Program-made: the position numbers and the translations under genes
From: Candidatus Omnitrophota bacterium
GTDB taxonomy: Bacteria > Omnitrophota > Omnitrophia > Omnitrophales > Aquincolibacteriaceae
Direction: 5' to 3'
Assembly (NCBI GenBank): GCA_030698625.1
Contig: JAUYMS010000003.1
Location: 1 to 64,000, forward strand
DNA length: 64,000 nt
In this document: in pieces, positions 20,101 to 51,619 of the stretch
How positions within the stretch are numbered: position 1 is the stretch's first letter
How the letters are laid out: every line of letters starts with the position of its first letter
Notes under the pieces: model-generated
Database searches by the model: none
What the model saw: only the letters and a program-made list of their open reading frames with translations
What the model was told of the DNA's origin: nothing

Positions 20101-23100
20101 GCCCATCCCGACGGTCTTTGACAGCCGCATCAAGGCATGGACCGACACCGCGCTTTTATCCGATGAAGACGACCAGAGTTATACTGTTCCGTTCAAAACG
20201 GAGGTCGGTAAGCGTGCGGTTCCCGGGCAGTATTATCGCGTCAGCGATGACGGCACGCAGCTCGTGCCGTATGACAACCCGGCGTTAGCAACAATGGACG
20301 GGGTCACACACGCCTTTGATGAGGCGCAGCGGGATGGGAAGAAGACTAACTTCGAGAAAAAGAAACAGACAGATGAAGAACTCGCGCACGCAAACCAGAT
20401 ACTCAAGAATATCCGCTACGTCGATATCGTCAAACAGGATTATCGTGTCCGCTACAATGCCGAGACCGGGCAGGTCGAAATTCTCGAGGAGCGCTGGCTT
20501 CTTTATGAATATACCTATAGCGACGGGTCACGGCAGGCCTTTTTCCGGCCGGAACGTCTCGTTCGCTTTGACACCTTTGTCGGGCATCTGCCTTCCATCG
20601 GGGCAATAACAAATATCTGGCGTCTCGACGAAGACACGACCGCGGACCTGGGTGACGGCGAAGAGGGAACGCTCGTGGCAGGCGCCCTGCAGTCGGGGCA
20701 TCCTCTCTACCAGCCGATCATGGAACCCGAGACACATCAGAACATCATCGGTTACGGCGGAATGGTATTTCATGTTTGGCAAAGTAATGCAGACGCCACA
20801 TTGTGGATGCAGATGGAAAGCCGGGCGCGCGAGCAGTCGAACATTAATGTGAAAAATGAGTGGCTGGCGCTCGGTCAGGGTCAATATACCGGTAAGGCCA
20901 TCGAGAATCTTGCCGCGGCGCATCATGCAAAGACCCATCGCATGGCCGAAGGCTTTTATGTCTCTCACGATATTTTAGAGCCGGGATATATGGGCTCGGG
21001 TCATTTCAACATGCGCTTGAAAAGAGAACTGAAAAAGAAAGGTCTCCTGACGGCGTTTGAGAAAGGGCCTAGCCATCACAAGTATGCCCGGGCAGTTGCG
21101 TTTATCGTGGACTTCCTCGAGTCTCCGACAGACCCCGGCCGCGTCGTTCTGCGCCGTTACGGGCGGCATGAGATGACTAAGGCCGAGTTGGAGGAACTCC
21201 TGTCCTATGACGTTCCGACCGAGGGCGGTTTCGGGTTGTTGACCGACATGGTCGGCTATGAAGAATCCTTTACCTCTCATGAGAATAGCCGCTTCAAACC
21301 CGACGGGCAGTGGAAGCGCGGAGACCTTCAGTTTTATCAGGCGACCTGGGGCGGTGTGGATATCCGAGGAAGCGTCACGCCTCCGCGCGCGATGCCCGGT
21401 TACATCATTTCACACCGCAAGACTCTCGAGCAGTCGGCCCTGGTTAAGGACGGGCAGTTTCACCGGGTTTTTGTGGGGCAGGAATACAAGCCCAGTCCCG
21501 TGCATGATGGTGTGAAATACTTTATTGCCCGGGTCAACGAAGCCGACCACCGCGGCGGCGCCATGTTTACCTGGCTGGTCATCATGCTCGTGCTGGCCGC
21601 CTTTTTCCACGCTCAGACCTTTAATCCCTTATCGCTTATTTACCGAACAACACCGTTTGCGGCGCTTCTCTTTATGATGTGGGTCATGCGCTCTTCGATT
21701 TTCCTGCGCTATGCGCGCGAAGAGGGAATGACCTTGCGCAACGCAACCAATCTTTACAAGGCAACTAAAGACATGATTACCAGCACGATGATCATCGGCG
21801 GCGTCAATGCATGGAAGTCTCTGCTGTCGACTTTTGCGCTGAGCTTCCGCGCGCCGACGATGAAATGGGTTACGATGTCGTCGGTAACAGACCATGCCCC
21901 CGGAATAGGGCGCATTATCGCCTTCTATACCGTCAGTTTTCTGTTGGGGCTTGTGTTCGTGGCCTATATCATTGCACTCCACCCGAGTATGGGGTGGCTC
22001 GTATACGGAAGTCTTTTCGTGGGCGCCTTCCTTACCGCGCCGATCCTGGCATGGATTACCGCACGCGAACCGAAACGCGCGGCCGTTTATATGGGCATCT
22101 TTAAAGTGCTTGTTGCTGCTGCCGCGGTGGCGATGCTCACACTGCCGCTTTACTCAGAAGTCACTTATGCAGGTTTTGGTTATTCAGTGCTCAAGCTCGG
22201 CCTCACGTTGGGCAAGGGGGCAGCAGTGCTGCTCGGTGTGATCCTTGCCTACAAGGTCCTTAGGCTGACTCTGCCGCCCATTTTTAGGAGGGCATTTTAT
22301 TTAGTAAGACATTCCCTGGAGTTTATCGGAGCGGGCATCACATGGCTCTTGGGCCTGGTTTCCTTTCGCTGGCTTTTAATGCTCGACGCACCCTTCCGGC
22401 AGCATTTCCCGCGGCTCTTTCATGCGGGAGAGGGATTTCATCTGTCCTCGATTCGCGACTATTTTTTCACGAAGGGAATCGACCCGCACCGGCATTTTTC
22501 AGCCAGTTACAAAGGTATCGGAAATATCATTTTGATTGCCGTGATCTGGGGTGCCCCGCTTATCTTTTCCGGGCCGCTTATTCATCTGCTCGGCGGAAGC
22601 CTGGGGCTCTATACGGGCGTTACCGGATTCTATGTCGGAACTTTCTTTCCGACCGGGCTCCTGGTCGTAGAAAAGGTATTGAGACCACAACGGCCTTGGT
22701 CGTGGAAAAATCCCTTCGATTACCCGCGAGCGGTTCTCAACCTGGCGGCGGCCTTGGTGGGCAATGCCGTCGGGCTCATTGCCTACTTGCTGAGAACAAC
22801 CCTGAGTCTTTTGGCTACGCCGTATCACGCGGCCCGGGTTAACCGCTTCATTCGTGTAGATCTTGACAACGTATCCGGTGAAAAGAGCAGAAAGCTTGCG
22901 CGCGACACCGCGAATGTCCTCAGCAACGGCAGCAAAGGGTTGCGTGAAAGTATCATGAGCCGGCTTGCGATTGGGCCGAAAGCCGATGAAAAACTCCACG
23001 CGATTAAGAAGTCGGGGATGCTGGATGACAAACAGTTTGCAGCCGTGGCGGAGATGTTTTTTGCGGACCGTCCCGGAGATACGCCCGTTTCCGTCGAAAG

Positions 23101-23707
23101 ATCAGAGTTGCGCCAAGCAGCTGAAGCGGTACCGGCTCAGGCCGAGCCGGTGCGGAGCAAAAAGGAACGGCCGAGGACACGCACCTATCTGGAGATCGTC
23201 AGCGACATTCGCGGGCTTCGCGGCGCCGTGGCCGTGGATGCACGAAGTGCGGCGAGCTTTAGCCCCGCACAAAAGGAAGAACTCGTGAAGCTGGCTCTTG
23301 CCGGGCGTGCCGCCGTTGTGATCTATGATAAAGACCGTGTTGCCGCTAAAGAGCTCGCGGAGTTCAAGGGTGTTGCCCATATTGGTTTGATTCCTGAAGG
23401 TGTAGAGCGGACCGAACGTTTACTGTCGCGGTTCGGTCAAGTCGTATGGCTCTTTGCCGACGGGCTCGACCCCCGTTCGGAGATCAACGCAGAAACGCAG
23501 GCGGCTGTGGGCAAACGCATGAAGTTGTTCCGTCAGCTGAATAACGAAGAAGAAGGCCTCGTGACTGCGGCGCTGCTCAAATTACGGTATGGAAACGCCT
23601 ACCGCGCCTTCCGCCGGGAAAACGGGGTGTACGAGTTAACGGACTACGGGTTGATCGAGCTCGTGCAGAACTATCTCGCCCAGGAAATCCTAAGCGCCGC
23701 GGCGTAA
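5159..23707 (+). CDS. Giant exported membrane protein 1 (6182 aa) with GT84-like glycosyltransferase core
   Basis: ATG at 5159 follows AGGTGG (5147-5152, 6-base gap). Residues 1-34 are a signal peptide ending in AQA. Order of parts: about 70-440, a domain shared with giant 2 (YIQDAHT with H80, [19 protein letters not shown] with H396), resembling the TIKI/TraB/ChaN group; RSELR at 481; hydrophobic stretches at 844-890 and 959-1120; mostly helical 1180-1700; fibronectin-III-like repeats about 1849-3120; a beta-rich part to about 4000; helical to 4480; membrane helices 4519-4560; a GT84-like core 4561-5460 with GQGQYTGK (5239-5246), SHDILE (5269-5274) and QWKRGDLQ (5384-5391), matching cyclic beta-1,2-glucan synthase motifs; about ten membrane helices 5464-5890; RSELR at 5981; a terminal domain. 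I infer an envelope glucan synthase with a huge ectodomain. The enzymatic call is motif-based only. Confidence 0.85.
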
Positions 23708-36421: not shown

Positions 36422-39400
36422 GTGGGATTTCGCCATAAGCGAACACACCCTACTATAAAGAAGATTATCGCGTGCGCGCTGTTGATATGTTTTACCGCCT
36501 TCAGCGTAGCCGCACCGGCCTCGGCCGCCTCTATGGCGGGTGTTGCGGCACACCCGAGCCTCGGAGACCTCACCTCGCTCTCCGTTCCGAAAGAGTTCGG
36601 CACCATTGAGCGCATTTTTATCCCGGCCGGCGGGAGCCGCCACGCGCCGGTCCTCTACATTCAAAATGCACATACCAATTATGACTCCGAGATCCATGTA
36701 AGCCGTCTTATTGAGCATTTCCGCAAAAAATACGACCTGCCGCTCGTCATGCTCGAGGGGGGTGAAGGCCGGCTCGACAATCTGTTCTTCCGCTCGTTTC
36801 CCGATGCCGAGGTCAAAGAAAAAGTACTGCGGGAATACATTTCGAAAGGAGAGCTCTCAGGCGGGGAGATGGCTGCGGTCACCGACGACTTCGGCGTCAC
36901 CGATTATATCGGAATCGAAGACCGCAAACTCTATGAGAGAAATAAACAGGCCTATCTGAAGGCCATTGCCGCTGAAGACGAAGTCCTCGACCTCTTGTGG
37001 CGTATCGATGATGAGCTCTACAAGCGAAGCCAGACTATTTTTTCAGAAGAGACCAAGACGTTCTGGACGTCTCAGAGAAACTTCCACAGCGATTATCTTG
37101 ATTTTATCGAGTACCTGAGCGTCGCCGCGGCCATTTGGAAGACACTGCGCAAAGAGCCGATCGCCTATACCTACCCGCAGCTCGGAAGGCTGCTTGCGCT
37201 CGAGTTCGAGCAGAAGCGTTATAAGGCCGGCGAGATCGACCTTGCCCTCAGAAATTTGATCCGGGAATTCCAAAAAGGGATACTCACGACACTGTCGTCT
37301 TATGAGCAGATGGACCTCAATGAAGGGATTCAGGATTATCTCACCAACCAGAGACAGGCGGCAGAGTTAGTTCAAAAATTTGTTGAGACGGCCGAACGGC
37401 ACGGACGCGAATTTCCGCTGCCGCCAGCCTTACAACCCGGTGCCATGCAGGCCCGCACCCTTGCCTCCATCAAAGGCACCGTGCTCTTCGACGAACTGCG
37501 CGACCTCGAAGCGCTGATTCGCGCCGAGCTTCCTAAAAGTGATGCCGAGCGGCGGCTCCTTGACGACCTCTTTCACTTGGATCTCCTCGATCAACTGGCG
37601 CACTTAGAGCTTGTGCCGCGAGAATGGAACCGGATCCGGGCTTCAAAGCCGAGTGCCTTGATCAAGTCGCCGACGGACTCAGGCGACCTGACAAAATTAG
37701 ACCGTCTTTATAACGCCCATTACCGCTTTTATGAATTAGCCGAAGAGCGCGACGGGGCGCTGTTCGCCAATATGGAAAGAACGGCTGCCGAACACCGCGC
37801 GGGTCTGTCGGCTGTTGTTACCGGCGGTTTTCACGCCGCGAGCATCACGCAGCAGCTGGAGGCCGCGGGCATTCCGTTTGCATTGATTCTGCCGAAAATC
37901 GAAACGATCGACGATGACTCGAGCTACCGTAATGTGATGCAGGGAAAACGGTCTTATACCGAGCGCTTCGGTGCAAACTTATGGGATGCGTTGGCCCAGG
38001 ACTATGCCGCTAAAATTGCGGCGACTCTGAAACCCGCAGATCTGACACCCTCATTAAAACAGTGGCGCGACCGCATTATCCAGAACGCGATTGCCGAGAA
38101 GAGGATTACGAGCGCAGGACAATACACACGGTATGTCGACGCACTGGTGCAATCCCTGCGCCGTAAGTTCGCCGAGAAAGGGGACTTTGCGGCGGACGAA
38201 GTCTCGGCTGAGGAACTGAGGGGTCTTATCGATAAGGAGCTGAACAATTTCCTACCCGTCTACTTTGAACGATTCCGGGCCCACCTCAAGAGGAAGGCCC
38301 TTGTTTTCGAGATGGGGCTGAAGGAAATATGGGTTTCGGGAGATATCTCAGCAGAGAAAATTGGCGGACTCTTTGACCGGTTGCATGCCGGCGGCACATC
38401 AAATCTTGCCCCGGATATTGCCCTTATCCCGGCACGGCAACCGCCCTCGACACCGCCTTCGGCGACACCACGCCTAAGCAGTACCGAGATTCGCGAAAAA
38501 GCCATCGAGTTAGAAAGAATCGCCGCCGAGCAGGGCCTGACACCTGAGGAGTTCGCCGGAGCACTGGAAGCTTATGACGCGATCCTGAGCGCCGAAGAAG
38601 GAATTATTGCCGGCACTCCGGCCGCACTGATTCGCGATACGATTCGCAGCGTTCCGAACACGAGCGATGCCGTCACCATCCTGACCGAAGCCCGCAGGCG
38701 CAACGGCACCCGTGAAGGCAGATTCACGATTGAAACGATTCCGCTGGACCAGGCTGCGGCTGAAGACGGCCGGGCAGGCAGATTCACGATCGAAACCGTT
38801 CCGCTGGGCAAGGCCACGATTGAAGTGTTTCCTGTTGCGGCTGCAGTGCCGCCTGCACCGCCGGGGCCTCCGAGTGAGCCACCGGGCGGGGGCAGCGGCA
38901 CCTTCAATTTTCCGGAAATTCCGGATGGTTTTAACACAAGCTCACTGATTAAAGAAGTCCTGCTACCCGGCAGGCCGGTATCAGCTTCGAGAGCTGCCGA
39001 GCCAGAAAGCCCGCATGCAGGTGAGCTTCGCGGCGAGATCGAGGATCTGCTGAGTGAGCTGGAAGAAGCCAAACAAAAAGACAAGCTGGCGTATGAAAGA
39101 AAACTCAAGGAGATTGCGGGGCGACTCCACGTCCTCATGATCTACCTTTACCTTGAGCTCTATGGGCCGTGGGTCGATGCAAAAGAACTTTTCCTCAAAC
39201 CGCCGGGCCCACAGACGGGCATTGAATGGGAGCTTTTGCTCGAAGGACCGGAAGAAATCTCGTTTACGGAACTCCTGAAGCGTCTGCTCGCTGCGAGTTT
39301 GGCGGGGGCTTATACCGCTGACCCTCAGCGGTCCGAGTTGCGTATTATTCCGTCGGCAGGGCTCGATTTTTCGGGGCAGTTGCGGCTTCGCGGGGCCCTG

Positions 39401-42400
39401 GAGGTCTTTGTTCAGGCACTGCAGAATCCGGCGCCCATCACGGCTTTGACACAAAACGAATTCGCGGCCGGGGAGTTTTCTTTTCTGTTACGAAGCGACG
39501 GTATTATCAGTATCGCCGATTACGGCAGCGCAGATCAGGCAAAGCAGACACAGACGCAATTTCGGGAAATCGGCTTCATTGAAGACCGCGGAGGACCGGC
39601 TCAGACAGCGATTCGTTCATTAATAGAAGAGGGCAAACGCATTGTTCATGAACGGCCCGAATTGCACCGCAACTTTACCGGCATCGCCGATGCCCTGCGG
39701 CAGAAAACCGCGTTGCGCGACGACAATACTTCGGGCCTATCGCCCCCGGTTGTCTCGGTTTCTCCGACGTTTCAACGCCGCACCCTGAGTGAGGCCCTTC
39801 GTTATCAAGCCGGAGTAGAGAGTAACCGAAATAATGCCCGCCGCGCCCGAGAGCAGCTCGAGCAGCTTACTGAAAATCAGAAAAACGAGATTATCGGGAT
39901 CCATACCTTATATGGTGAGCTTGCGCCCGGCGAGGGAGAATTCTTCCGGGGTTCAACCCTTGAAGTAAAAAATACTTCGGAGATCCCGGAGATAGCCGAT
40001 CTGGCAAAGGCCCAAAATCTCCCCGATGTGCCGGTTGTCATTATCCGCCTCTCTGCAGAGGCCCTGAAACGCTTGAAGCAGAGCGGGAAAATCAGCGGTG
40101 CCGGGATAAGCGTGCACAATGTCCCCGGTGCGGTCGCCATTCAGGGTGCCTTGGCACGAAAGGGATTCGGTGCTTTTAATATCGGCGCCATTATTACGCC
40201 GCAGAGTCACTTCGGTTATTCTCCCACAGAAAGGGAATTTCACGAACTCGGTCATAATATCGCCTTGGGCAAAACTGCCGATCTCGGCCGCACGGCGACA
40301 CCTTTCATCGTAAGACCCGGCGGCGAGGTGGACACTTTAGAAGAACTCAGCAATTACCGGCTTATGTATGCCGGCGCTGACGGGCAGATCAACCGTGTTG
40401 ATCAATTCGGAAGGCCGCTAAAGACCTATGAAGGCAAGCGCGGGCTCGTCACGGGTTATGCGCGCAGCGCCAAGCAGAGACGCGAACTCGAACGCATGAT
40501 GGATATCGTGGCGCGGCTCGACTCCATTTTCCCGCACCGCTATGTGACGCATCTGTTGCTGCGTGCCCGCAGCCATGAAGAAGTGTTGGGGTGGACAGTC
40601 GATGAGGCCGGCCGTGAACTCAGTGATGAGGCACTTGTTGAGAGATTTTTGGAACACTTTACACTCGAGGAACTCCTGAGGGCCAAAAAAGCAGGCTATG
40701 ACCCGAATCAGATTGCGCTCCTGGACTTGGACGATCAGGCGCGCGAGCGCGAGTACATACGCGGAGATCTTGCGAATCCCACGACTGAGAACATTCAGCG
40801 GTGGGCCGATCAGTGGGCCGTCGGGCCGGTAACTTATCTGGTCGAGACGGGGCGCCGCTCAGAGCTGCGCCTGCTGCAGGGCTGGCTGAGTGCCGAAACG
40901 ACAGACCCGATTCTCTACAACGCTGCGGTGAGTGCACTGAACAGGCTGGGTCTTACGCCTGCCGATATTGCGGCACGGCTCGCACCCATTGAGGAGTCCG
41001 GCGCCGATCTTCAGCCCGACATTAATATTTCCAATCAAGGTGTGCGTGAACAGTCCGTGCACCCGGCAACGAATGCCGAGTTTCGTGCCCAGCTGGATGA
41101 GAAATACCGTAAGCAGGAACTTGCCAAGGGCAGACCGCTTGCCGTGATTAATGCCGAGATTTTGGCAGCAGGCGTTTCGGGCGCTGCGCTCGCGATCCAG
41201 CCCGATGCGGTCACAACCAATGAATTCGGCGAGACAGAAAACGTCTTTTTCTTAGACGGCCTCGCCGAAGACAGGCAGATTGGTCATGCAGGGCTCACGC
41301 GCAACCAGGTCTATGCCAAGACCGGCCGCTACGATATCGCAGCCCATGAACTTGCCGAACTCCGGCTGTGGAAAATCAAAGAACGCGAACTTATCGAAAG
41401 GGGCGAGATCGATCCGTCTGCGACGCCTGCAAGCGGCACACCGCGTAATATCCGCGAATGGATCCGCGCCAATATCACCGAGGCAAGAAGACTCGACGCC
41501 CAGTTTCATGCCATCGGGCTGAAAGCGGAAGCGGCCGCCCGCGCCCAGAAGGTAAAAACCGCCGACCATCTTTCACGTGTGGTCTACCAGGTTATCGGGA
41601 AGGCGCTCTACGAGGTCCCCGTAACTGCGGCCAAAGCGGAACTCGACAAAGTCCAGAAGCAATACGAACTCCTCAAGAATTCGGGTTTAAAGGGTGAGGC
41701 GTTTCAAGTTGAACTTAAGCTTAAGGAGACCGAGCTTGCCGATGCGGCAAAGAAATTTCAGCAAGCACATGAGAAGTGGTTTACTTATCAGATTCTTCAG
41801 TCCCCCAACGGGGCAAACCGGCTTAAAGGCCTCCTGAGAAAAATCGGTATCGATGTCAAACCCGGCGACACGCGGTCGGGGCTCACTCTTTTGGAAGCAT
41901 TTTCGCTGAACCCTGAGGTCAGAGCTATCTATGACAAAGTCACAGCAGCCCTGGCGGCCCATGAAAGTGAACTGCAGGCGGCCCTCGAAATTGACAGTGA
42001 AGATAAGATCGAAACGCGCGAGCACTTAGAGAAACTCAGGGCACTCGGCGAGAAGGTCAGGGGCGAATTGGAAAGGGACCTGGCGGGCACCGATACGGAG
42101 CTTCTCAGCATTATCATTCCGACAGCCGTCTCGGAGTGGATTACCGGGTTCTCCCTATTGGATGAGAGCGGGCAAAACGTGCGCGCGGGAGCGCAGGCCG
42201 ACCTGATCGGTCAGGGGCGGGCCAATTTCATCGTCGCGGTCGCCCTCTATTTGGGTTTTGATATCTCGGCACCCACGGGTATCGGAAAAACAACGGGGAT
42301 GCGTCTCGGTGCGGCGATCGCCAAATATGCGGATCCGAATACCTCAGTCGGTATGTTTTTAGAAAATACCGATTCCGAGGGGAAAGACTATGTGAAGGTG

Positions 42401-45400
42401 AAGAAGGGCGGCCAGTATGACGGAAGCAGGCAGCGGAAGGTGGGTGCGGATGCGGATTATGCCAAAGGGGTTACCGGTCTCGAATTTGCGGCGCTCAACG
42501 GATATGACGTCATTCGCGCCAGCGATTACATCGGGGAAGGCAAGGAAGATTACGCGGGGCTTCATGAGCAGCTTAAGAGCAACCCCAGGGCGGTCCTCGT
42601 CATCGATGTCTTCAACGCGTCACAGCTCGGCAATCAATTCGACAGGCTCTCCGAGAGCGGTAAACTCGATGCCGTGGACCTCTATGAATATATAGAGGCA
42701 ATGGATGTCAAGATTGTCGACGAAGCACAGATCCCAGCGCTGCACCGTGTCCGTTCCATTATCGCCAAAGGCGGCGACGCTCAATTGGAAGGCCGGAGAA
42801 AAATAGTTCGCCGCGGCTTGAATGCGGCCAAGGTCCTCGACCGCCTGCGGGAGGAGGGCGAGTTCGTAGAGGCCGAGGACATCGAAGACTTTCTGCAATA
42901 TTTAAGCGACGGCACGCTTAAAGAGACCCCGGCCTATGTCGTTACCGATGAAGGCATCGAGTTGAACCGGGCGCTGACGGAATTGCTGAGAAAAAATCTC
43001 AAGAAGTACGGGTTCACGCGGCAGCGCGAGTTCCGCTCACTCCTGCAGGCGCTCTATGCCCCGAGCGAATCGCTGATGCCGGGCATTATCGAAGGGCGAA
43101 TCGAGCTTAAGCCCTTCCAGGAAGACAAGGGAACGATCGAAAAACGCCAGCAGTCCAGCGACGTCGCCCTCCAGGTCGGTGCCCTTTACCGCTTTTTTAA
43201 GCAGGTGGCCGCAGAAAACGAGGCGCGCGCCAAAAATGCCCCGCAGGTGATCGAGGAAATCAAGACACAGCTGGAGTCGATGAGAACGCCGGCCAATACG
43301 GCGGCGATTAACCGCCTCAAAGCCAATCTCGACAGGCTCAAAGCCGGTCACAACGAGAAGCTCTATAATCAAATTGCGGCGCAAATCGAGGCCTTGAGAG
43401 ACTCGGCTAATAAAACGGTCATTGACGGCCTAAGCGAAGATCTAAGAAAAGCAGGGCCCGTCAGAGTTCGGGACGTGGTGCAGGACCTGGAGAGTACCGA
43501 CAACCGGATTGACGGAGAGAAGGCCGGCGACAAAATTTTGAGCGGTGATGAAATCGTTGAAGGCGTGGATCTGAAACCCGGCAGCAAGGCGAAAACCGAA
43601 GTTAACTATGAGAAGTTGGGGAACTTCTTCAAGGTCGAATCCATCGGCCGCCTTGACACAAAGACCGGGACCCCGATTCAGGAACTTTTTGGTTCGGGCG
43701 TGCGAACGCTGTCGGCAACACTTCCGCTCACAAACGAACTCTATACCGGGAATCCGCTCATCGATCTCGGCACGAGCCGCCCGGACCTGGAGCTTTACAA
43801 GGAGGCCGGACGTCTCCATCTCGGCACCCTCGATTTTGACAGCGACGAAGATATTGAAAAACTTCTAAGCCTTTTGAAAAGCCGGGATGTCCTCCGGAGC
43901 GGCGATGAGAGTAAAGGAGAATTGGCGGTAAAGCCGCTCATCGTCATTCCGCTTGTGAAATATCAGGGCAGACTGCGCGAGCGGCTTGAAGAGTATCTGA
44001 AACAACACCCGGACCTTGCCGCCGACCTTGGGTATACGGCCGACGCCGTCCGGAACATCATCCGTGAAGTGGGCGTAACGACCACCTCCGAGGCGGTGCA
44101 GGAAATTGAGGGCGAGGGCCTTTATTCCCAGGGGTTCGTTGTGATCGGGCCGAGCCGTATTGCGACCGGCCGCGACTTCAAGGGCATCATATCCGTCATC
44201 GGGCTGGGTATAGAAAACTATCCCGCCGACCTGCTCGCACAGCTGATCGGCCGCGACCGCCAAAATCGCGGCCAGATTCATCTTTACGGGGCGACCGAGG
44301 GACTGCGCCGTAATCTGGTTCAGTCCATCGCGGGCGCCGAGGCAACCGATATGGAAAGATTCTTGGCCAGGCAGTTGAAGATCCTCGAGCGGGAGCTGGC
44401 CGACACGGAAACACGGACCGAAACGGAATTCGACGCGGCAAAAGCGCGAAACGCCAAATTCGCCGTGAGCGGCAACCGAAAAGATCTCGGGCATGATGCC
44501 CTGGTGATCGATAAAATTAGTAAGGCCCTCGACGGCACCGTGGACGGCAAACCCGGGAGCCCGGCGCTCAGAACTTCGGCCAACGAGGCGGTGATCGACC
44601 GCATTAAGCAGAACCTGGGCAATCTCCTGGCGGCCGTCGATGCCGTAAGCGTCAAAGACCTCGTCAACAAGATCAACGCGGATTTCGGCACACTTCAAGG
44701 CCTCTCGCCGGCCGAAGCAAAGATCAATCTGGAAAAATTACAGGCTTATGCCGGGAACATACAGCGAGTCTTCCTGGTGACGCGGGTCGGCCAGCAGACG
44801 ACGCGCCGCGATGAAGGCAAAAGGCATATCCTTTTACACCGCGTCCTCCGGCAGAAGTACGATCAGAGCAAAATGGGTTCCGAGGAATTTCAGGACCTGC
44901 TCGAAAAACTCGCGAAATCAGCGGATCAGAAAATAACGCTGGAGTACAAAGACGAGGCAAAGGGCGAAACGCCCGAGTCGACGACCAGTACGGAGTTCCG
45001 CCTGAGCGATTTCTACGGCCTCAACTTTCAGTACCGTTACCTCATGGTGCAGTCTCACGCCAGCCGTTTTGTGGCCACGACCATGTCACGCAACGAAGTT
45101 GTCACGCGGCCCCTGAAGTCTCTCGTCAGTCAGCTTATCAACGGAACCGGCCAGGCCGCGGCGCTAAGCGTGCCCGAGCGGCAGAAGGCCGTCGCATACC
45201 TCTCGGAGCTCATCAAGGAAATCGAGGAGGGAAAGGTCTTTGATGTGGATTCCTATCTCGAACGCGGTGTTATCTCCGGCGAAGACTATGTGCGGAATGA
45301 ATTGTTGATGCAGATCAATTTCGTGCTGGGTGAGGACCTCGAAAATGACCGGGGTGTCCTGGAGAGGCTGCGGGGCCAGAAAATATTCCGGTCGATCTGG

Positions 45401-48400
45401 TCGCTCGTCGAAGACACGCTCCGTGTCACCGAGTTGCGCGAGGTGAAACAGGCGCTCAAGACCAAGGAATTCAAATTGGAATCGGTGCAGGCAGAGGCGA
45501 AGCTTAGTGCTGAGCAGGGCTTCCCGGGTAAATTTTCCATCGCTTCAACTAAGGACAAGAGCCTGCGCAACCTCTTCAAGACCTTGGTCCTGTTTTCCGA
45601 ATATGTCGCTGCCGGGCACCGGCACCGCTCGCCTTCCTCCGAGCAGGGTGAAAGGGCTTATGCCCAAACCGCCAAGGAAGAGACCAACCGCGACCGCGGG
45701 TATCAGCGATCTCTCGGGGATGTCCTGGAAGATAGTACGAAGACAAGAGAAACCACCGAAAAATTAAAGAACCGAAGCGAACTGCGCGGCGGCCGGGTCT
45801 CGCGGGCGGCGCTTAACTTTAAGCGATTTCTGGAGCAGCTCAAGAAGCGCCTGGAGACCGACACCGAACAGACAACGGCTGCCCTGAATCGCCTCCGGCG
45901 CGGCATCCGCGCGGATAATCCCGCTTTTATCAAGGACGATTGCGCCGGCGGAACGTCGTGTGCGGACCTCGCCTATGCCGTTGCGCATGAACTTTTGGAT
46001 CAAGGGGTGTTTGCGGATCCCCAGCAGGGCAGTACGGTTGCCGGCCGGGCTCTCGGCTTCTTCGATTCCCTGAGCGATACCGAAGCGGCCGCTGTCCGGT
46101 TCCCGGATTTTCTAAGCGCGCTCCGCGCCGATCACCCGGAAGCCGCTCTCGCGCGCCTGAAACTTCTCTATAAGGGCGCCTTAAATCCGGCCGAAGAAGC
46201 AGCGGCCAACGCCGCATTCGACACAGAAGCTGAGGCGGAGCGTTATAAGCGCGTGAGGACAAAACTGGCCAAGAGAAAATCTGTTTATGATGAAAAGGTA
46301 TCAAAGCAGTCGGAGTTCCTGCGTTTTCGAGGCGGCCTTCGCGGGGTGTTGGACAATATTAGGTACTATCTCAACCTGAGCCAGGCGGTGAAGGGTGTCC
46401 TGAGTTTTGAGCTCGGACTCTCGGGCCTGAGGAACAGTCTCCGGACCCGCGGCTGGAAAGGCCTCTACTCGAAATTCTTTCAACCCTTTTTCGGCGGCAG
46501 TCGGAATCTTTTCGGGATTATCCGAGTGAACGCCATTACGGTCGCCGATGTGTACAACGGCAGCGGGGCGGACCTGGAGCAGACTCTAAGACAACTCCGG
46601 TCGCAGGTTCCTGACTTGGAGGAAGCCGATCTGGATATTCTACGTGACCGTTGGGGTGATCTCGACAGCACCCTCAGGAATCTGCTTATGAATATGTCGG
46701 TCGAAGACCTGCCGCGATTCCTCCGGGCATTAAAGGCTGTGGAAAAGGAGGCGGGTGAAGAGGGGTTTGCCAAAGACCGCGGCCGCGTGATTCGGGATGC
46801 CTACCGTGTCGCTTTCGAAAAGGAACCCGACAGCGCGGGGGCCGAGTTTCGCAGGACATTGGTTTCGGTTTTTAAAGTGGGTTTGGTGGTTGCGGCGACG
46901 ATCGCACTCACGGTCGCGTTACCGCTCGGCCTTCTCTACGCGGCGGGACTGCTCGGGGTTGCGGGCGCGTTCCAGATCGTGTCTCTGGCGGTGACCTACG
47001 GCCTGTTGAATACGCCGTTCGGTGCTAAGTTGTTCAAAGACAAGAAAGAAGGATTGCTGGCCTTGCTGAATCAGCCGGAGGGTACCCTGGCGGGCACGCT
47101 TTTGAAATGGACGGTATTCCTGCCAAAAAGCACCGCAAAGGCATTTTTGAATAAAAAATTTACGCAAAGCGGTAAACGCCTCAAGCGTTTAAGCAAACTC
47201 GAAGACTTGATTGAACGCGCCAAGAAAGGCTATTTCAAGCCTTCGGCTGTCAGCCTGCTGCGTGTCATTAAACTGCATTACGCCGAAAAGGGCTGCGAGG
47301 GAAATGCCTGTGCCGCACTCGATGCCCTGGTTTCGGATTTTGACGGTGAAACCGGATACGCAAACGGCCAGACGATCCCCGATACTTTTAAATCCTTTTC
47401 AATCGCTGACATTGACGGCACTTTGGGGACGCCGTCGAAACTGGCCGAAATCTGGACGGGGATAAGCGACATTGCGGACAATGTCCTTGCCAGTGACGCG
47501 CGTGTTGCCGCATTTACTTTGGAAGAACTTGAGAAGCTCGCGGCCCGTCACGGGCTTGACGATCACGTTTGGGATTTGGCGCGCCAGTTTGATAATTCCC
47601 TGGAGACACCCGGCGCGGACCTGCTCCAGGCGATCAAAGATTCGGGTACGGCGCGCAGTCAGATTCACCTTTCGGAATTCCGCGAACTCGCGAAGGCTTC
47701 GCGGGCCGTTGCCCTGCTTGCGGCCCCGACCGAAGACGATCTCCTGACTGTCGGAGAAAACTTTCTCCTCACGCCTACGAGCTTGAAGATTTTAGCCAGG
47801 CAGGCCGGGCTTACGGTTGATGCCGCTACGTTTACGCAGAAACTCCTGGACCGCGGCAAGGCGGCGGGCCGCCAGGCGCAGAGGCGCGCCCTTGCGAAGA
47901 CCCGCATTGCCCAGGCCATCGAAACCTTGAAGGAGGCCGAGCGCGTTCCGGCCGCAGATCGCGGCGCAAAGCGAGCCGAGGCGGCGAGCCTGCTCGACAA
48001 GGCCTTCCGGGCCGACCCGGACCAGGGCAAGCGTATTGCGGAAGTAGAACTCGATTTCCGGCTGGCCGGCGGTTATGACTATGTTTACAAGGCCCTTCGC
48101 GGCATGATTGACACGATGAGAGAGGATCTCAGGGTCAACCGCGCCCATTATACGGCCGAGGAAATCAAGGGACTTGAGATTCAGCTCGCACTCCTGGAAA
48201 AACGGCACAAGGCCGGCAACAAGATCGTCATTGCGTCGAATCTCGATGCGGCGGCGTTGAACCGCGGCGGCGAGATCCATTTGAACAGAAACCTGCTCAT
48301 TGCCATGAACCGCCTGCGGCGTGATCCGAAACTGGGAAAAGATGCCGAAACGATTGTTCAGGCAACGATCGGGTTTTTTCTGCAGCATGAAGAAACGGAA

Positions 48401-51400
48401 GGCCGGCTGGATATGCTTGATCGTCAAGTGATCATCAGACAGTTAGTGCAATTTCAAATCACCGAAGCGAGCCGCGCCTTGACCCCCGCCGAAAAGACCG
48501 AGCGGGACCGGCTGCTTCATATCCACCGCCTCATCGGTCACGGCGACGGCAAATCAACTCATCGCGGCGCCAATGACTTCGGAAAGGCCTTTCGCGACTA
48601 TGCGGCCAACTATTATGAAATGCTCTACACGCGGACACTGACGAATGCACAGCGCGAAGGGGTCTACACGGCCTTCGAAGGCCTTGCGGCCCTCTGGCAT
48701 CAACCCAATTTTCTGGACAAGATCACGCCCTATAGGCGCTTTGCCGACGGAGGAACGGATGTCAGCCCGTTTGAAATTGCGAGACAGCGCCGCCGGGAGC
48801 GTATCAAGGTCGTCAATGATCTCAGGGCGCTGAAAGCCAAAGAACGTGCCGCCCTGTCGGGAGGTCCGGTCCTGACGGCGGCTGAAGAAGCCGAGCGTGG
48901 CCGGCTCGAAAAAGAACGGCAGCAGCCTCTCTGGAACGAAAAGACAAGCCCGGTAAGAATCTTCAACGATTACTTTCGCCACAATAGTGTGTTCGGCTAT
49001 GCCTTCGCCTTCAAGAAGGCCGTCAACGACGGGCTTATTAAGCGGGCAAAAGAAATTCTCGAAGCGGAAAAGAAAAAGAACTTTGACGATGACCGACGGC
49101 CCCTGGCCGAGCCGAATATCAGCCAAGCCATGATCGATGACCTGGAGGCCCTCCTCAGGAATGTTGCCGGCAAGAACGAAGCCGAGAGAAAAGCGGAAGT
49201 CTCGAAGTGGTGGGAAAATGTCGAAAATAGCGCCTTAAAACTCTTTTCCCTATATACCCAATACAACCATGACGTTGTCGGGGATCTTGTCGCCGGCGAG
49301 GCCGCCAAAGTTGCCGACGAAATCGAAGCCGGCTTCAAACCGGATGCAAGCGGGGTCGTCGACCCGGTGAAATTGGCCGCGGCCCGTGAGAAGTTTGTCG
49401 TCGATGCAAGCGGCACGCCTATTCTCGAGAACACGATACGAAACATCCTGGGGCCCGGTTTTATTAACGTCGATCCCTTCTCCGACGGTTTCTATAAAGT
49501 GGAAGAGCAGGTCAAAGAGAGAATTCTTAAGACAATCTTTCAATACGGAGACGATAATGACAGGAAGCTGGTGCAGAAACTGGCGAAGCGCTCGCCCGGA
49601 AGCCGGCGGACGCTCGACTATTATCTTAAGAGTTTTTCCCTGGCGGCCATGCTCGAAGATGCTGAGTCCCACGAGAAAACGGCGCCCGCCGCCAAGACCG
49701 ATGCACAGCGCTTCATTGAAAGCAATCTGCAGGAACCGGGTGCCTTTGCCGTTACGCCCGGGCTTTCGGCCGCCGACGCGCAGATCATTGCGGATACGGT
49801 ACGAGCCGCCCGCACCGCGAATGAGACGGCCTATCTGGTACTCACCGGCGTCACCGATTCCCAACGCGATATCCCCGAAGTCCTTTTAGACGAACTCAAC
49901 AAGATCGGCTTTGAAACGTCGCTCGCGCAATTTAAGCGGGGTGAGAACGTGTACCTTAGTTTTCAAGGGGCACTGCCGGAACGGATTGAGCCGTTCGGCT
50001 CCCACGGGTACACGAGTACGGATATTCAGGTGACTCACTTTCACCCTTCAGACGACCCGACGCCGAGCAGTATTACCGACGCGCCGGGCAGCGGCAGTTC
50101 TAAGATTATTGCGCGCACAAGGGCCTCGACTTACAGCACGCATGAATCGAGCCACCCTGATGTCACCGGGCACAGTCCGGTAGGCGATGCCTTTGACCCG
50201 GCCAAACACCAGCAGATTGTCTTCTATGAAGATGACAGCGGGAATAAGGTTTATGACGTCTTTGAGGAAACATCCCCCGACCCTTATAGTGGTTTCCAGA
50301 GCTATGCGCCTGAGTTTACCGACTTGATCAGGCGGCTGCGTACCGACAATAAGGCTTACACATTTTACATAAAGGATAACCGGCCGGGCAGTACGCCGAC
50401 CGACTGGTTGAAATCCCAATACTATATTCCGGGGACTTCGCGCTCGGAGCTTCGTCAAAGTGTTGCCGCCGACAAGGTATCGCCCGACGCGGTCGACACC
50501 TCGGTTTCGCGGGCCGTCAGTATTGTCGGCAATGCCGTGGCGGGTGATGCGCTGGTTCGACTGGGACTTGCCGCAGATACAGTGCTCTATGACGATGACG
50601 AAGTGGCGGCCGCGCTTAAAGTGCTTTATGACCGCGGGCTAAGTGCCGAAGACGTTGCGGGCTTGACCAGGCCGGTCATTGAAAACGCGGTGAACCGGGC
50701 GCTCGGCGATCTTCGGCAGCGGTTGAGCGAGCCGGAACGGCGCGGGGCTGTTCTCGACGACCTCGGCACCCGGCTTGCGAGTTTTGATACGACTCTTCCC
50801 GCTCCGGAGGCCTTGTGGCATGCGTTTGTCGACGCCTCGGGACTCATTGCGGTGGAGAACCCGGATTTCACGGAACTCTCGGGCTGGGTCGACAGCGTAC
50901 GTAATCTCATGCGCTACTCGGCTGCGGTCTCGACTGAAGGCGGCGCGCTCGGACTCAGTCTCGACAATTTAACGCAGGCCGATGTCGCACGCGCGCGGGC
51001 GATCAAAGATGCGATCCTGGCAAATAAAGAGAACCGGATTATTTCTTATCAGATATCGAACGACCTCATTAACTCGGCCAATCGCCGGGAGCTCATCGAG
51101 GAATTGGCCGTCACGGTGCGCAATACCGTGATGCTTCGCCCCAATTATTATATCCGTATTATCGTGCCGACCATTGCCGACCAGGACGAGCTGCGTGAAA
51201 TCTTCGGGCGGCTGGCCAATGAATCTGATTTGGAGATCATTACGCCGAGTCACGTGTATCTGACGAGCACGGAGGCACAGCCGAACATCCTCGAGGTGTT
51301 TACGCCTTCGCATATTGTCATTACCGATGATGCCGAGATCCACGCGAACAAGATCGGCGATGCCGCAGCCCTCGCCTCCGACCGTTTTGTCGACGGCAGT

Positions 51401-51619
51401 GTGCGCATTCGTTACACGGGTGACTTGAAGGTGACGCCTTCCGAGCTCCTGCTGGCGGCGATCGCGTCACTCACCGAGGAGACGCTCGATCAGTTGGTCC
51501 GCTACGACAACGGGCTGATCCGCGCCCGCAATCGCACGGCCCTGACGTCCTTTGCCCTGGCCGCCCAGATGCTGGCCCAGGAATTCCGCGAACAAATCCT
51601 CCAAGCCCGCAGCGCGTAA
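36422..51619 (+). CDS. Giant exported protein 2 (about 5065 aa) with SF2/SecA-like ATPase and metalloprotease-like motifs
   Basis: Start chosen at the GTG at 36422: GAGGA at 36412-36416, and the next 35 residues form a signal peptide ending PASA. The open frame extends 78 codons further upstream without a signal. Parts: 70-516, domain shared with giant 1 (YIQNAHT with H84, LEGGEG, IGIEDRKLY, GGFH with H471); Pro-rich linkers near 670 and 810; RSELR at 970, 1479, 3118 and 4674; HELGH at 1274-1278; HELAE at 1642-1646; an SF2-type ATPase about 1930-2640 with PTGIGKT (1951-1957), DEAQ (2100-2103), TGRDF (2582-2586) and QLIGRDRQNRGQ (2607-2618); two membrane helices about 3483-3537; HEETEGRL from 3989; a JAMM-like HFHPSDDPTPSSITD at 4539-4553. 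Much of the rest is charged helix or coiled coil. I infer a secreted or periplasmic multi-module protein; no substrate can be named. Confidence 0.85.
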   Translation: MGFRHKRTHPTIKKIIACALLICFTAFSVAAPASAASMAGVAAHPSLGDLTSLSVPKEFGTIERIFIPAGGSRHAPVLYIQNAHTNYDSEIHVSRLIEHFRKKYDLPLVMLEGGEGRLDNLFFRSFPDAEVKEKVLREYISKGELSGGEMAAVTDDFGVTDYIGIEDRKLYERNKQAYLKAIAAEDEVLDLLWRIDDELYKRSQTIFSEETKTFWTSQRNFHSDYLDFIEYLSVAAAIWKTLRKEPIAYTYPQLGRLLALEFEQKRYKAGEIDLALRNLIREFQKGILTTLSSYEQMDLNEGIQDYLTNQRQAAELVQKFVETAERHGREFPLPPALQPGAMQARTLASIKGTVLFDELRDLEALIRAELPKSDAERRLLDDLFHLDLLDQLAHLELVPREWNRIRASKPSALIKSPTDSGDLTKLDRLYNAHYRFYELAEERDGALFANMERTAAEHRAGLSAVVTGGFHAASITQQLEAAGIPFALILPKIETIDDDSSYRNVMQGKRSYTERFGANLWDALAQDYAAKIAATLKPADLTPSLKQWRDRIIQNAIAEKRITSAGQYTRYVDALVQSLRRKFAEKGDFAADEVSAEELRGLIDKELNNFLPVYFERFRAHLKRKALVFEMGLKEIWVSGDISAEKIGGLFDRLHAGGTSNLAPDIALIPARQPPSTPPSATPRLSSTEIREKAIELERIAAEQGLTPEEFAGALEAYDAILSAEEGIIAGTPAALIRDTIRSVPNTSDAVTILTEARRRNGTREGRFTIETIPLDQAAAEDGRAGRFTIETVPLGKATIEVFPVAAAVPPAPPGPPSEPPGGGSGTFNFPEIPDGFNTSSLIKEVLLPGRPVSASRAAEPESPHAGELRGEIEDLLSELEEAKQKDKLAYERKLKEIAGRLHVLMIYLYLELYGPWVDAKELFLKPPGPQTGIEWELLLEGPEEISFTELLKRLLAASLAGAYTADPQRSELRIIPSAGLDFSGQLRLRGALEVFVQALQNPAPITALTQNEFAAGEFSFLLRSDGIISIADYGSADQAKQTQTQFREIGFIEDRGGPAQTAIRSLIEEGKRIVHERPELHRNFTGIADALRQKTALRDDNTSGLSPPVVSVSPTFQRRTLSEALRYQAGVESNRNNARRAREQLEQLTENQKNEIIGIHTLYGELAPGEGEFFRGSTLEVKNTSEIPEIADLAKAQNLPDVPVVIIRLSAEALKRLKQSGKISGAGISVHNVPGAVAIQGALARKGFGAFNIGAIITPQSHFGYSPTEREFHELGHNIALGKTADLGRTATPFIVRPGGEVDTLEELSNYRLMYAGADGQINRVDQFGRPLKTYEGKRGLVTGYARSAKQRRELERMMDIVARLDSIFPHRYVTHLLLRARSHEEVLGWTVDEAGRELSDEALVERFLEHFTLEELLRAKKAGYDPNQIALLDLDDQAREREYIRGDLANPTTENIQRWADQWAVGPVTYLVETGRRSELRLLQGWLSAETTDPILYNAAVSALNRLGLTPADIAARLAPIEESGADLQPDINISNQGVREQSVHPATNAEFRAQLDEKYRKQELAKGRPLAVINAEILAAGVSGAALAIQPDAVTTNEFGETENVFFLDGLAEDRQIGHAGLTRNQVYAKTGRYDIAAHELAELRLWKIKERELIERGEIDPSATPASGTPRNIREWIRANITEARRLDAQFHAIGLKAEAAARAQKVKTADHLSRVVYQVIGKALYEVPVTAAKAELDKVQKQYELLKNSGLKGEAFQVELKLKETELADAAKKFQQAHEKWFTYQILQSPNGANRLKGLLRKIGIDVKPGDTRSGLTLLEAFSLNPEVRAIYDKVTAALAAHESELQAALEIDSEDKIETREHLEKLRALGEKVRGELERDLAGTDTELLSIIIPTAVSEWITGFSLLDESGQNVRAGAQADLIGQGRANFIVAVALYLGFDISAPTGIGKTTGMRLGAAIAKYADPNTSVGMFLENTDSEGKDYVKVKKGGQYDGSRQRKVGADADYAKGVTGLEFAALNGYDVIRASDYIGEGKEDYAGLHEQLKSNPRAVLVIDVFNASQLGNQFDRLSESGKLDAVDLYEYIEAMDVKIVDEAQIPALHRVRSIIAKGGDAQLEGRRKIVRRGLNAAKVLDRLREEGEFVEAEDIEDFLQYLSDGTLKETPAYVVTDEGIELNRALTELLRKNLKKYGFTRQREFRSLLQALYAPSESLMPGIIEGRIELKPFQEDKGTIEKRQQSSDVALQVGALYRFFKQVAAENEARAKNAPQVIEEIKTQLESMRTPANTAAINRLKANLDRLKAGHNEKLYNQIAAQIEALRDSANKTVIDGLSEDLRKAGPVRVRDVVQDLESTDNRIDGEKAGDKILSGDEIVEGVDLKPGSKAKTEVNYEKLGNFFKVESIGRLDTKTGTPIQELFGSGVRTLSATLPLTNELYTGNPLIDLGTSRPDLELYKEAGRLHLGTLDFDSDEDIEKLLSLLKSRDVLRSGDESKGELAVKPLIVIPLVKYQGRLRERLEEYLKQHPDLAADLGYTADAVRNIIREVGVTTTSEAVQEIEGEGLYSQGFVVIGPSRIATGRDFKGIISVIGLGIENYPADLLAQLIGRDRQNRGQIHLYGATEGLRRNLVQSIAGAEATDMERFLARQLKILERELADTETRTETEFDAAKARNAKFAVSGNRKDLGHDALVIDKISKALDGTVDGKPGSPALRTSANEAVIDRIKQNLGNLLAAVDAVSVKDLVNKINADFGTLQGLSPAEAKINLEKLQAYAGNIQRVFLVTRVGQQTTRRDEGKRHILLHRVLRQKYDQSKMGSEEFQDLLEKLAKSADQKITLEYKDEAKGETPESTTSTEFRLSDFYGLNFQYRYLMVQSHASRFVATTMSRNEVVTRPLKSLVSQLINGTGQAAALSVPERQKAVAYLSELIKEIEEGKVFDVDSYLERGVISGEDYVRNELLMQINFVLGEDLENDRGVLERLRGQKIFRSIWSLVEDTLRVTELREVKQALKTKEFKLESVQAEAKLSAEQGFPGKFSIASTKDKSLRNLFKTLVLFSEYVAAGHRHRSPSSEQGERAYAQTAKEETNRDRGYQRSLGDVLEDSTKTRETTEKLKNRSELRGGRVSRAALNFKRFLEQLKKRLETDTEQTTAALNRLRRGIRADNPAFIKDDCAGGTSCADLAYAVAHELLDQGVFADPQQGSTVAGRALGFFDSLSDTEAAAVRFPDFLSALRADHPEAALARLKLLYKGALNPAEEAAANAAFDTEAEAERYKRVRTKLAKRKSVYDEKVSKQSEFLRFRGGLRGVLDNIRYYLNLSQAVKGVLSFELGLSGLRNSLRTRGWKGLYSKFFQPFFGGSRNLFGIIRVNAITVADVYNGSGADLEQTLRQLRSQVPDLEEADLDILRDRWGDLDSTLRNLLMNMSVEDLPRFLRALKAVEKEAGEEGFAKDRGRVIRDAYRVAFEKEPDSAGAEFRRTLVSVFKVGLVVAATIALTVALPLGLLYAAGLLGVAGAFQIVSLAVTYGLLNTPFGAKLFKDKKEGLLALLNQPEGTLAGTLLKWTVFLPKSTAKAFLNKKFTQSGKRLKRLSKLEDLIERAKKGYFKPSAVSLLRVIKLHYAEKGCEGNACAALDALVSDFDGETGYANGQTIPDTFKSFSIADIDGTLGTPSKLAEIWTGISDIADNVLASDARVAAFTLEELEKLAARHGLDDHVWDLARQFDNSLETPGADLLQAIKDSGTARSQIHLSEFRELAKASRAVALLAAPTEDDLLTVGENFLLTPTSLKILARQAGLTVDAATFTQKLLDRGKAAGRQAQRRALAKTRIAQAIETLKEAERVPAADRGAKRAEAASLLDKAFRADPDQGKRIAEVELDFRLAGGYDYVYKALRGMIDTMREDLRVNRAHYTAEEIKGLEIQLALLEKRHKAGNKIVIASNLDAAALNRGGEIHLNRNLLIAMNRLRRDPKLGKDAETIVQATIGFFLQHEETEGRLDMLDRQVIIRQLVQFQITEASRALTPAEKTERDRLLHIHRLIGHGDGKSTHRGANDFGKAFRDYAANYYEMLYTRTLTNAQREGVYTAFEGLAALWHQPNFLDKITPYRRFADGGTDVSPFEIARQRRRERIKVVNDLRALKAKERAALSGGPVLTAAEEAERGRLEKERQQPLWNEKTSPVRIFNDYFRHNSVFGYAFAFKKAVNDGLIKRAKEILEAEKKKNFDDDRRPLAEPNISQAMIDDLEALLRNVAGKNEAERKAEVSKWWENVENSALKLFSLYTQYNHDVVGDLVAGEAAKVADEIEAGFKPDASGVVDPVKLAAAREKFVVDASGTPILENTIRNILGPGFINVDPFSDGFYKVEEQVKERILKTIFQYGDDNDRKLVQKLAKRSPGSRRTLDYYLKSFSLAAMLEDAESHEKTAPAAKTDAQRFIESNLQEPGAFAVTPGLSAADAQIIADTVRAARTANETAYLVLTGVTDSQRDIPEVLLDELNKIGFETSLAQFKRGENVYLSFQGALPERIEPFGSHGYTSTDIQVTHFHPSDDPTPSSITDAPGSGSSKIIARTRASTYSTHESSHPDVTGHSPVGDAFDPAKHQQIVFYEDDSGNKVYDVFEETSPDPYSGFQSYAPEFTDLIRRLRTDNKAYTFYIKDNRPGSTPTDWLKSQYYIPGTSRSELRQSVAADKVSPDAVDTSVSRAVSIVGNAVAGDALVRLGLAADTVLYDDDEVAAALKVLYDRGLSAEDVAGLTRPVIENAVNRALGDLRQRLSEPERRGAVLDDLGTRLASFDTTLPAPEALWHAFVDASGLIAVENPDFTELSGWVDSVRNLMRYSAAVSTEGGALGLSLDNLTQADVARARAIKDAILANKENRIISYQISNDLINSANRRELIEELAVTVRNTVMLRPNYYIRIIVPTIADQDELREIFGRLANESDLEIITPSHVYLTSTEAQPNILEVFTPSHIVITDDAEIHANKIGDAAALASDRFVDGSVRIRYTGDLKVTPSELLLAAIASLTEETLDQLVRYDNGLIRARNRTALTSFALAAQMLAQEFREQILQARSA

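Follow-up and report, generated by a model that had tools for sequence, protein, structure and literature searches.

The window considered here is 64,000 nucleotides of a Candidatus Omnitrophota genome (contig JAUYMS010000003.1, positions 1-64000, contig C21 of the 3.52 Mb assembly that we label G000), and it holds two giant genes. The second, giant 2, encodes a chain in which a full set of superfamily 2 (SF2) ATPase motifs stands in the middle of a nearly cysteine-free protein that begins with a predicted signal peptide and is punctuated by exact copies of the pentapeptide RSELR. We suggest that giant 2 is an exported, RSELR-processed giant whose parts that depend on adenosine triphosphate (ATP) act inside a prey or host cell, a reading for and against which we find the weight about even. 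Giant open reading frames have been reported in Omnitrophota (PMC10066038). Here the ATPase domains sit on chains that look fully adapted to the outside of the producer, so that their place of action becomes a sharp and testable question.

Motifs I, II, V and VI of giant 2 lie in the right order and exactly at the residues where a first-pass annotation of the window had placed them, with motif III, absent from that annotation, between II and V (Table 1; residues are counted from the GTG at 36422). None of 5000 shuffled sequences matched the ordered motif pattern, which had been written after the sequence was seen. Conservation among homologues is the stronger evidence against chance. Four further genomes, from three other genera within the family, also encode a homologous core inside giant frames (2,818 to 7,878 residues, all ending at contig edges), with 27-31% identity over the core. 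All sequences compared are metagenome-assembled genomes or other assemblies, in which several homologues end at contig edges. Every member covering the motifs keeps them, as [GA]TGIGK[ST] or PTGIGKT, DE[AV]Q, LSATLP, R.[AG]T..D and GRDR(S/Q)N; the Walker lysine is present in all four covered homologues, and DE.Q and GRDR in all five giants. Motifs I, II, III, V and VI with the catalytic Lys, Asp-Glu and Arg residues that define SF2 are therefore found in order in five giants. Because all motifs are kept in four homologues at such low identity, a dead nucleotide site in giant 2 is unlikely, and the motor is predicted to be catalytically competent and to hydrolyse ATP. Of 384 genomes drawn from across the phylum, only 9 matched the profile of the core, four of them weakly. 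As a single query against the genome contigs, the giant 2 protein gave no match, and the alignment recovered the same four homologues.

The relation of the core to SecA is indirect. Searches of Pfam, NCBIfam and PDB sequences returned nothing significant, and neither SecA (Pfam PF07517, PDB chains, a SecA profile) nor the DEAD-box family (PF00270) matched it. The earlier description of the core as SecA/DEAD-like thus holds for the SF2 motif order and, at the profile level, for resemblance to the SecA-like domains that other giants carry, and fails for direct similarity to SecA or to Pfam helicases. Other giants of the class, 2,307 to 39,033 residues long and one of them in this genome (C42, 12,573 residues), are nevertheless recognised by Pfam SecA_DEAD. 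The longest of them (G021:C47) combines a SecA-like domain (TGEGKT) with many NGDGK/DLNGD repeats of dockerin or calcium type. Against a profile combining eleven SecA-like domains from other giants, hhalign gave the core a probability of 76% (E 2e-5; reversed control 0.1%). An unforced long alignment placed Walker A on Walker A, DEAQ on DE.D, SATLP near the GMTGT region and ATGRD on AGRGTD, in the right order, so that the core is colinear with the SecA-type motif layout. Other SF2 clusters (DEAD, RecG and others) scored at most 2.6%, save one 35% match lying off the motifs. Strands predicted just N-terminal to motifs II, V and VI are compatible with RecA-like folds, although no proof of them. 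Because the Pfam and PDB searches are empty and a direct SecA link is absent, yet the core is colinear with SecA-like giant domains, we take it to represent a new SF2 family of SecA type, highly divergent and missed by Pfam.

The evidence for export begins at the N-terminus. A GAGG ribosome-binding site lies 6 bases 5' of the GTG at 36422, and a signal peptide begins there (MGFRHKRTHPTIKKIIACALLICFTAFSVAAPASA^AS, type-I-like as judged by eye), in support of the first-pass call. All homologous complete N-termini examined are signal-peptide-like, mostly with [AV]-x-A sites. The signal peptide that precedes the module described next is unusually conserved (FTxTSVVWAD). The signal peptide and the module of ~550 amino acids occupy positions 5159-7108 in giant 1 and 36422-38221 in giant 2, and the module hallmarks IQ[DN]AH, EG and GGFH follow the signal peptide in all complete giant N-termini compared in detail. 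All 49 genomes examined in the class have the module, often in 20-30 copies per genome, as do 169 of 384 genomes of the phylum. It ranges from stand-alone proteins of ~530 residues to giants of up to 35,000. It has no significant match in Pfam, NCBIfam or PDB sequences. Its predicted structure (predicted local distance difference test, pLDDT, 71) weakly resembles the erythromycin esterase EreC, BcR135 and the effector HopBA1; in a fold search, read for an EreA/ChaN/Tiki-like fold, EreC ranked 2-3 (E 0.2, probability 0.35-0.47) and the other two fell within the top 40, none of them significantly. In three giants of other genera whose N-terminus is covered (G038 C33, G038 C15 and G023 C117), the module is combined with a SecA-like P-loop. 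A conserved, predicted secreted N-terminus followed by variable C-terminal enzymatic parts is the layout of polymorphic toxins and host-directed effectors, and the giants display it. Signal peptide and lineage-wide module may together direct export of the giant chain.

No other residue of the giants comes close to cysteine in depletion (0.05x). Pooled over six giants with the module, cysteine makes up 0.04%; on the same contigs, cytosolic-like proteins have 1.16% and signal-peptide-like ones 0.53%. The mature giant 2 chain has four cysteines, arranged as the pairs CAGGTSC and CEGNAC, and its core, counted over 880 amino acids, has none; giant 1 has none at all, a sister giant of 14,273 residues has one, and eight further giants of this genome have five altogether. 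SecA and helicases of this organism and its relatives contain ~0.5-0.75% cysteine. At the rate of SecA motors the five cores together should contain 26.8 cysteines and contain 4, and the SecA-like domains of other giants should contain 70.4 and contain 8. The depletion may be an adaptation to an oxidising or unfolded-export route. These features suggest that the giant 2 chain is exported, and signal peptide and depletion argue against a cytosolic role as a partner of SecYEG.

An ATPase on such a chain poses a paradox, since ATP is found inside cells. The paradox is real and general across the giants, because SNF2, ResIII, PCMT, APH and GNAT domains stand behind the same N-terminus in sister giants. 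The 14,273-residue giant of this genome (C48:4821-47639) bears SNF2-Helicase_C, PCMT, two histidine-kinase-like ATPase (HATPase), an APH phosphotransferase, GNAT, Rce1-like and TPR domains. Another of 9,109 residues (C50) combines a histidine phosphatase and a P-loop domain with two ResIII/DEAD helicase domains, in which ATGKT and DEVHH are intact. P-loops are intact in the SecA-like, SNF2 and ResIII domains of the sister giants, and most sister-giant domains need ATP, S-adenosylmethionine or acetyl-CoA, or are usually intracellular.

Eight giants, with 67,614 residues between them, contain the pentapeptide RSELR 62 times, whereas 0.17 copies would be expected from their composition. In an independent test on eight further giants of this genome, all eight were positive (75 copies in 52,123 residues), which brings the total to 137 copies in 16 giants and about 120,000 residues. 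No copy was found in 80 kb without giants, one-letter variants are near background, and relatives of the same family also carry RSELR in low copy. A DNA repeat was considered and ruled out, as the 62 sites comprise 54 distinct 15-mers and every synonymous codon is used across them; it is therefore the peptide, not the DNA, that is kept. The copies fall at domain borders. The two best-annotated giants have 28 sites, not one of which lies inside a Pfam-matched domain, a count that is weak alone since matches cover about one-tenth of the C48 chain. One site lies seven residues past PCMT, others lie just outside APH, Rce1 and HATPase domains, and the first usually follows the N-terminal module. 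An alanine or serine comes next after the final arginine at 28 of the 62 sites. An exact, recurrent site at domain borders is what a processed polyprotein would show, and the simplest reading of RSELR is a processing site cut after its last arginine. We found no mention of an RSELR-type motif in the literature. If cleavage occurs, giant 2 would release a fragment of ~1,640 residues (about 1484-3122) with the complete motor.

Taken together, we read giant 2 as a multi-enzyme giant poor in cysteine, and probably as a polyprotein. In the proposed sequence of events, the signal peptide and N-terminal module would send the chain out, an endoprotease acting at RSELR would free the fragment carrying the whole motor, and contact or injection would bring the motor to a prey or host cell, in whose cytoplasm it would act. 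Since cells are where ATP occurs, that foreign cytoplasm is the most likely place for the motor to work. Of the three ways out of the paradox that the first-pass annotation had offered, the best fit is delivery into a host or prey cell; delivery itself, and the cell that would be its target, we propose. In the class, 32 of the 49 genomes, among them this one, have TLC-family (nucleotide-transporter-like) genes. More broadly, and more tentatively, this class of Omnitrophota may export tens of near-cysteine-free polyproteins per genome by way of the shared signal-peptide module. In this family, an endoprotease specific for exactly RSELR would split them into enzymes for the attacked cell, including ATP-driven SF2 motors as well as kinases, methyltransferases and acetyltransferases that use that cell's cofactors; we lean somewhat against this wider reading. 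If it is true, the giants are not single huge machines but a delivery format, in which one gene encodes an entire set of enzymes to be injected.

Several points weigh against the main reading of giant 2. Direct profile comparison of the core with SecA gave a probability of 1.7%. The AlphaFold model of the core, built on a five-row alignment, was too poor for a fold search (pLDDT 45, predicted template modelling score 0.26). The flanks of the one hydrophobic hairpin of giant 2 are neutral to positive on both sides and give no clear orientation by positive-inside analysis. RSELR might be a binding site instead. Cysteine depletion in very long chains could have other causes.

Other places of action have to be considered. 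If an N-terminal segment anchors in the membrane or export stalls, the motor would work in the producer's own cytoplasm, where ATP is available and SecA-like motors normally work; giant 2 has no transmembrane segment between signal peptide and motor, and its topology consequently depends on the signal peptide alone. Against such retention stand the uniformly signal-peptide-like complete N-termini and, indirectly, the near absence of cysteine from chain and core when set beside the SecA and helicases of the organism and its relatives, and we consider it unlikely. A site that is structural, or that serves another ligand outside the cell, would make the ATP problem disappear, and the high divergence of a core family with no curated match leaves some room for it. 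However, the catalytic residues (Walker lysine, DE.Q, SAT, the motif V aspartate and the GRDR arginines) are fully kept in the divergent homologues, and the P-loops of the sister domains are intact. The homologue comparison proposed with the first-pass annotation, in which loss of the Walker lysine and the DEAQ-type motif would have spoken against an ATPase, found both retained, and the non-hydrolytic explanation is very improbable.

A motor might also serve its own delivery, the SecA-like domain entering the target first and pulling the chain through the target membrane with the help of the hairpin. SecA-type motors move polypeptides, and the order of the cassette around the motor is kept in five giants. 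Yet the SNF2 and ResIII sisters suggest enzymatic cargo of several kinds, not a single role in translocation, and cleavage at RSELR would uncouple the motor from its cargo; self-translocation is, in our view, distinctly unlikely. The shared N-terminal module, the depletion of cysteine and, most of all, the exact RSELR sites offer practical starting points: an export signal and a pattern of fragments, both predicted, and a protease to seek. Should RSELR be a cleavage site, the giants are polyproteins, which would change the reading of all such genes.

The cassette consists, in all five core-bearing giants, of the ATPase, a conserved block (residues 2835-3140), a hydrophobic hairpin and an HExxE block; a fourth element, the HxHP..PS..TD block, is found in three of the five. 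A simple hydropathy scan of giant 2 gave the signal peptide and the hairpin (3486-3529) as its only hydrophobic segments, in agreement with the membrane helices annotated earlier only near 3483-3537. C42 likewise has the HExxE block after its SecA-like ATPase. The motif THFHPSDDPTPSSITD is conserved in three giants (HFHP..P.PS..TD) and has no Pfam match. By their motifs, the HExxE and HxHP..PS..TD blocks are metal-site-like. Two metallopeptidase-like motifs, HELGH (40241-40255) and HELAE (41345-41359), lie 5' of the ATPase; the region around residues 1118-1524 has a relative at a different place in a giant of another genome (G014).

Table 1. Features of the two giant genes in the window.
Feature	Position	Strand	Remarks
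Giant 1	5159..23707	+	6,182 amino acids; same signal peptide and N-terminal module as giant 2; two RSELR sites
RSELR sites, giant 1	6599 and 23099	+	exact pentapeptide
Giant 2 gene	36422..51619	+	5,065 amino acids from GTG 36422; one uninterrupted frame, open upstream to TTG 36188
Signal peptide, giant 2	36422..36526	+	35 amino acids; predicted cut ASA^AS; aligned with N-termini of 6 giants and 29 module loci
N-terminal module, giant 2 (IQNAH ... EGG ... GGFH)	36527..38221	+	weakly EreA/HopBA1-like fold
RSELR site 1, giant 2	39329..39343	+	residue 970
RSELR site 2, giant 2	40856..40870	+	residue 1479; upstream border of ATPase-containing block
SF2/SecA-type ATPase core	42023..44398	+	residues 1868-2659; no cysteine
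Motif I / Walker A, PTGIGKT	42272..42292	+	residues 1951-1957
Motif II / Walker B, DEAQ	42719..42730	+	residues 2100-2103
Motif III, SATLP	43712..43726	+	residues 2431-2435; between motifs II and V
Motif V, TGRDF (ATGRDF)	44165..44179	+	residues 2582-2586
Motif VI with arginine finger, QLIGRDRQNRGQ	44240..44275	+	residues 2607-2618; contains QLIGRDR
Conserved block directly after ATPase	44924..45841	+	colinear in all five giants
RSELR site 3, giant 2	45773..45787	+	residue 3118; downstream border of ATPase-containing block
CAGGTSC cysteine pair	45941..45961	+	disulfide-like spacing; one of two pairs in mature chain
Hydrophobic hairpin	46877..47008	+	residues 3486-3529; comparable place in homologues
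CEGNAC cysteine pair	47294..47311	+	second pair
HExxE block	47990..49348	+	QHEETE at 48383-48400; also in SecA-like giant C42
JAMM/RadC-like block	49346..50464	+	THFHPSDDPTPSSITD at 50033-50080; ends at RSELR here and also in the G012 giant
RSELR site 4, giant 2	50441..50455	+	residue 4674

No SF2 motif set was seen in giant 1. Type II secretion genes, expected beside giants from the literature, are not their neighbours here, which are instead genes for complex I, thymidylate synthase, succinate dehydrogenase and transport. A gene of the deoxyhypusine-synthase family (PF01916; 57734-58735) lies 3' of the succinate dehydrogenase genes, in a bacterium.

Among known systems, SecA presents motifs I, II, III, V and VI in matching order, aligned via the SecA-like domains of other giants. 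The core of giant 2 differs in lacking detectable direct similarity, in having DEAQ rather than DEVD and SATLP rather than MTGTA, and in standing mid-chain in an exported-looking giant; the genome also has a separate, normal SecA of 871 amino acids. A preprint by West-Roberts et al. reportedly describes SecA_DEAD-bearing giant proteins of Omnitrophota, which are said often to carry SecA-like domains. These giants share phylum and giant open reading frames with giant 2, whose core is a separate family that Pfam misses. In the literature accessible to us, we found no published description of the shared signal-peptide module, the cysteine depletion or the RSELR junctions. Polyproteins cleaved at short protease sites resemble the giants in having an exact short motif at domain borders, here with alanine or serine after the final arginine; the giants differ in being bacterial and, by prediction, exported, with cleavage that we infer. 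The closest likeness in layout is to the APD1/APD2 effectors of Amoebophilus, whose conserved secreted N-termini are followed by highly variable enzymatic C-terminal parts, including SecA-like helicase-related domains (PMC3482391). Those effectors differ in having a lipobox and other N-terminal domains, and in belonging to a Bacteroidetes endosymbiont. Further, an Omnitrophota predator makes open cytoplasmic contact with its prey (PMC13153191). By analogy, these effectors and this contact lend support from the literature to a mechanism by which giant 2 could be delivered into another cell.

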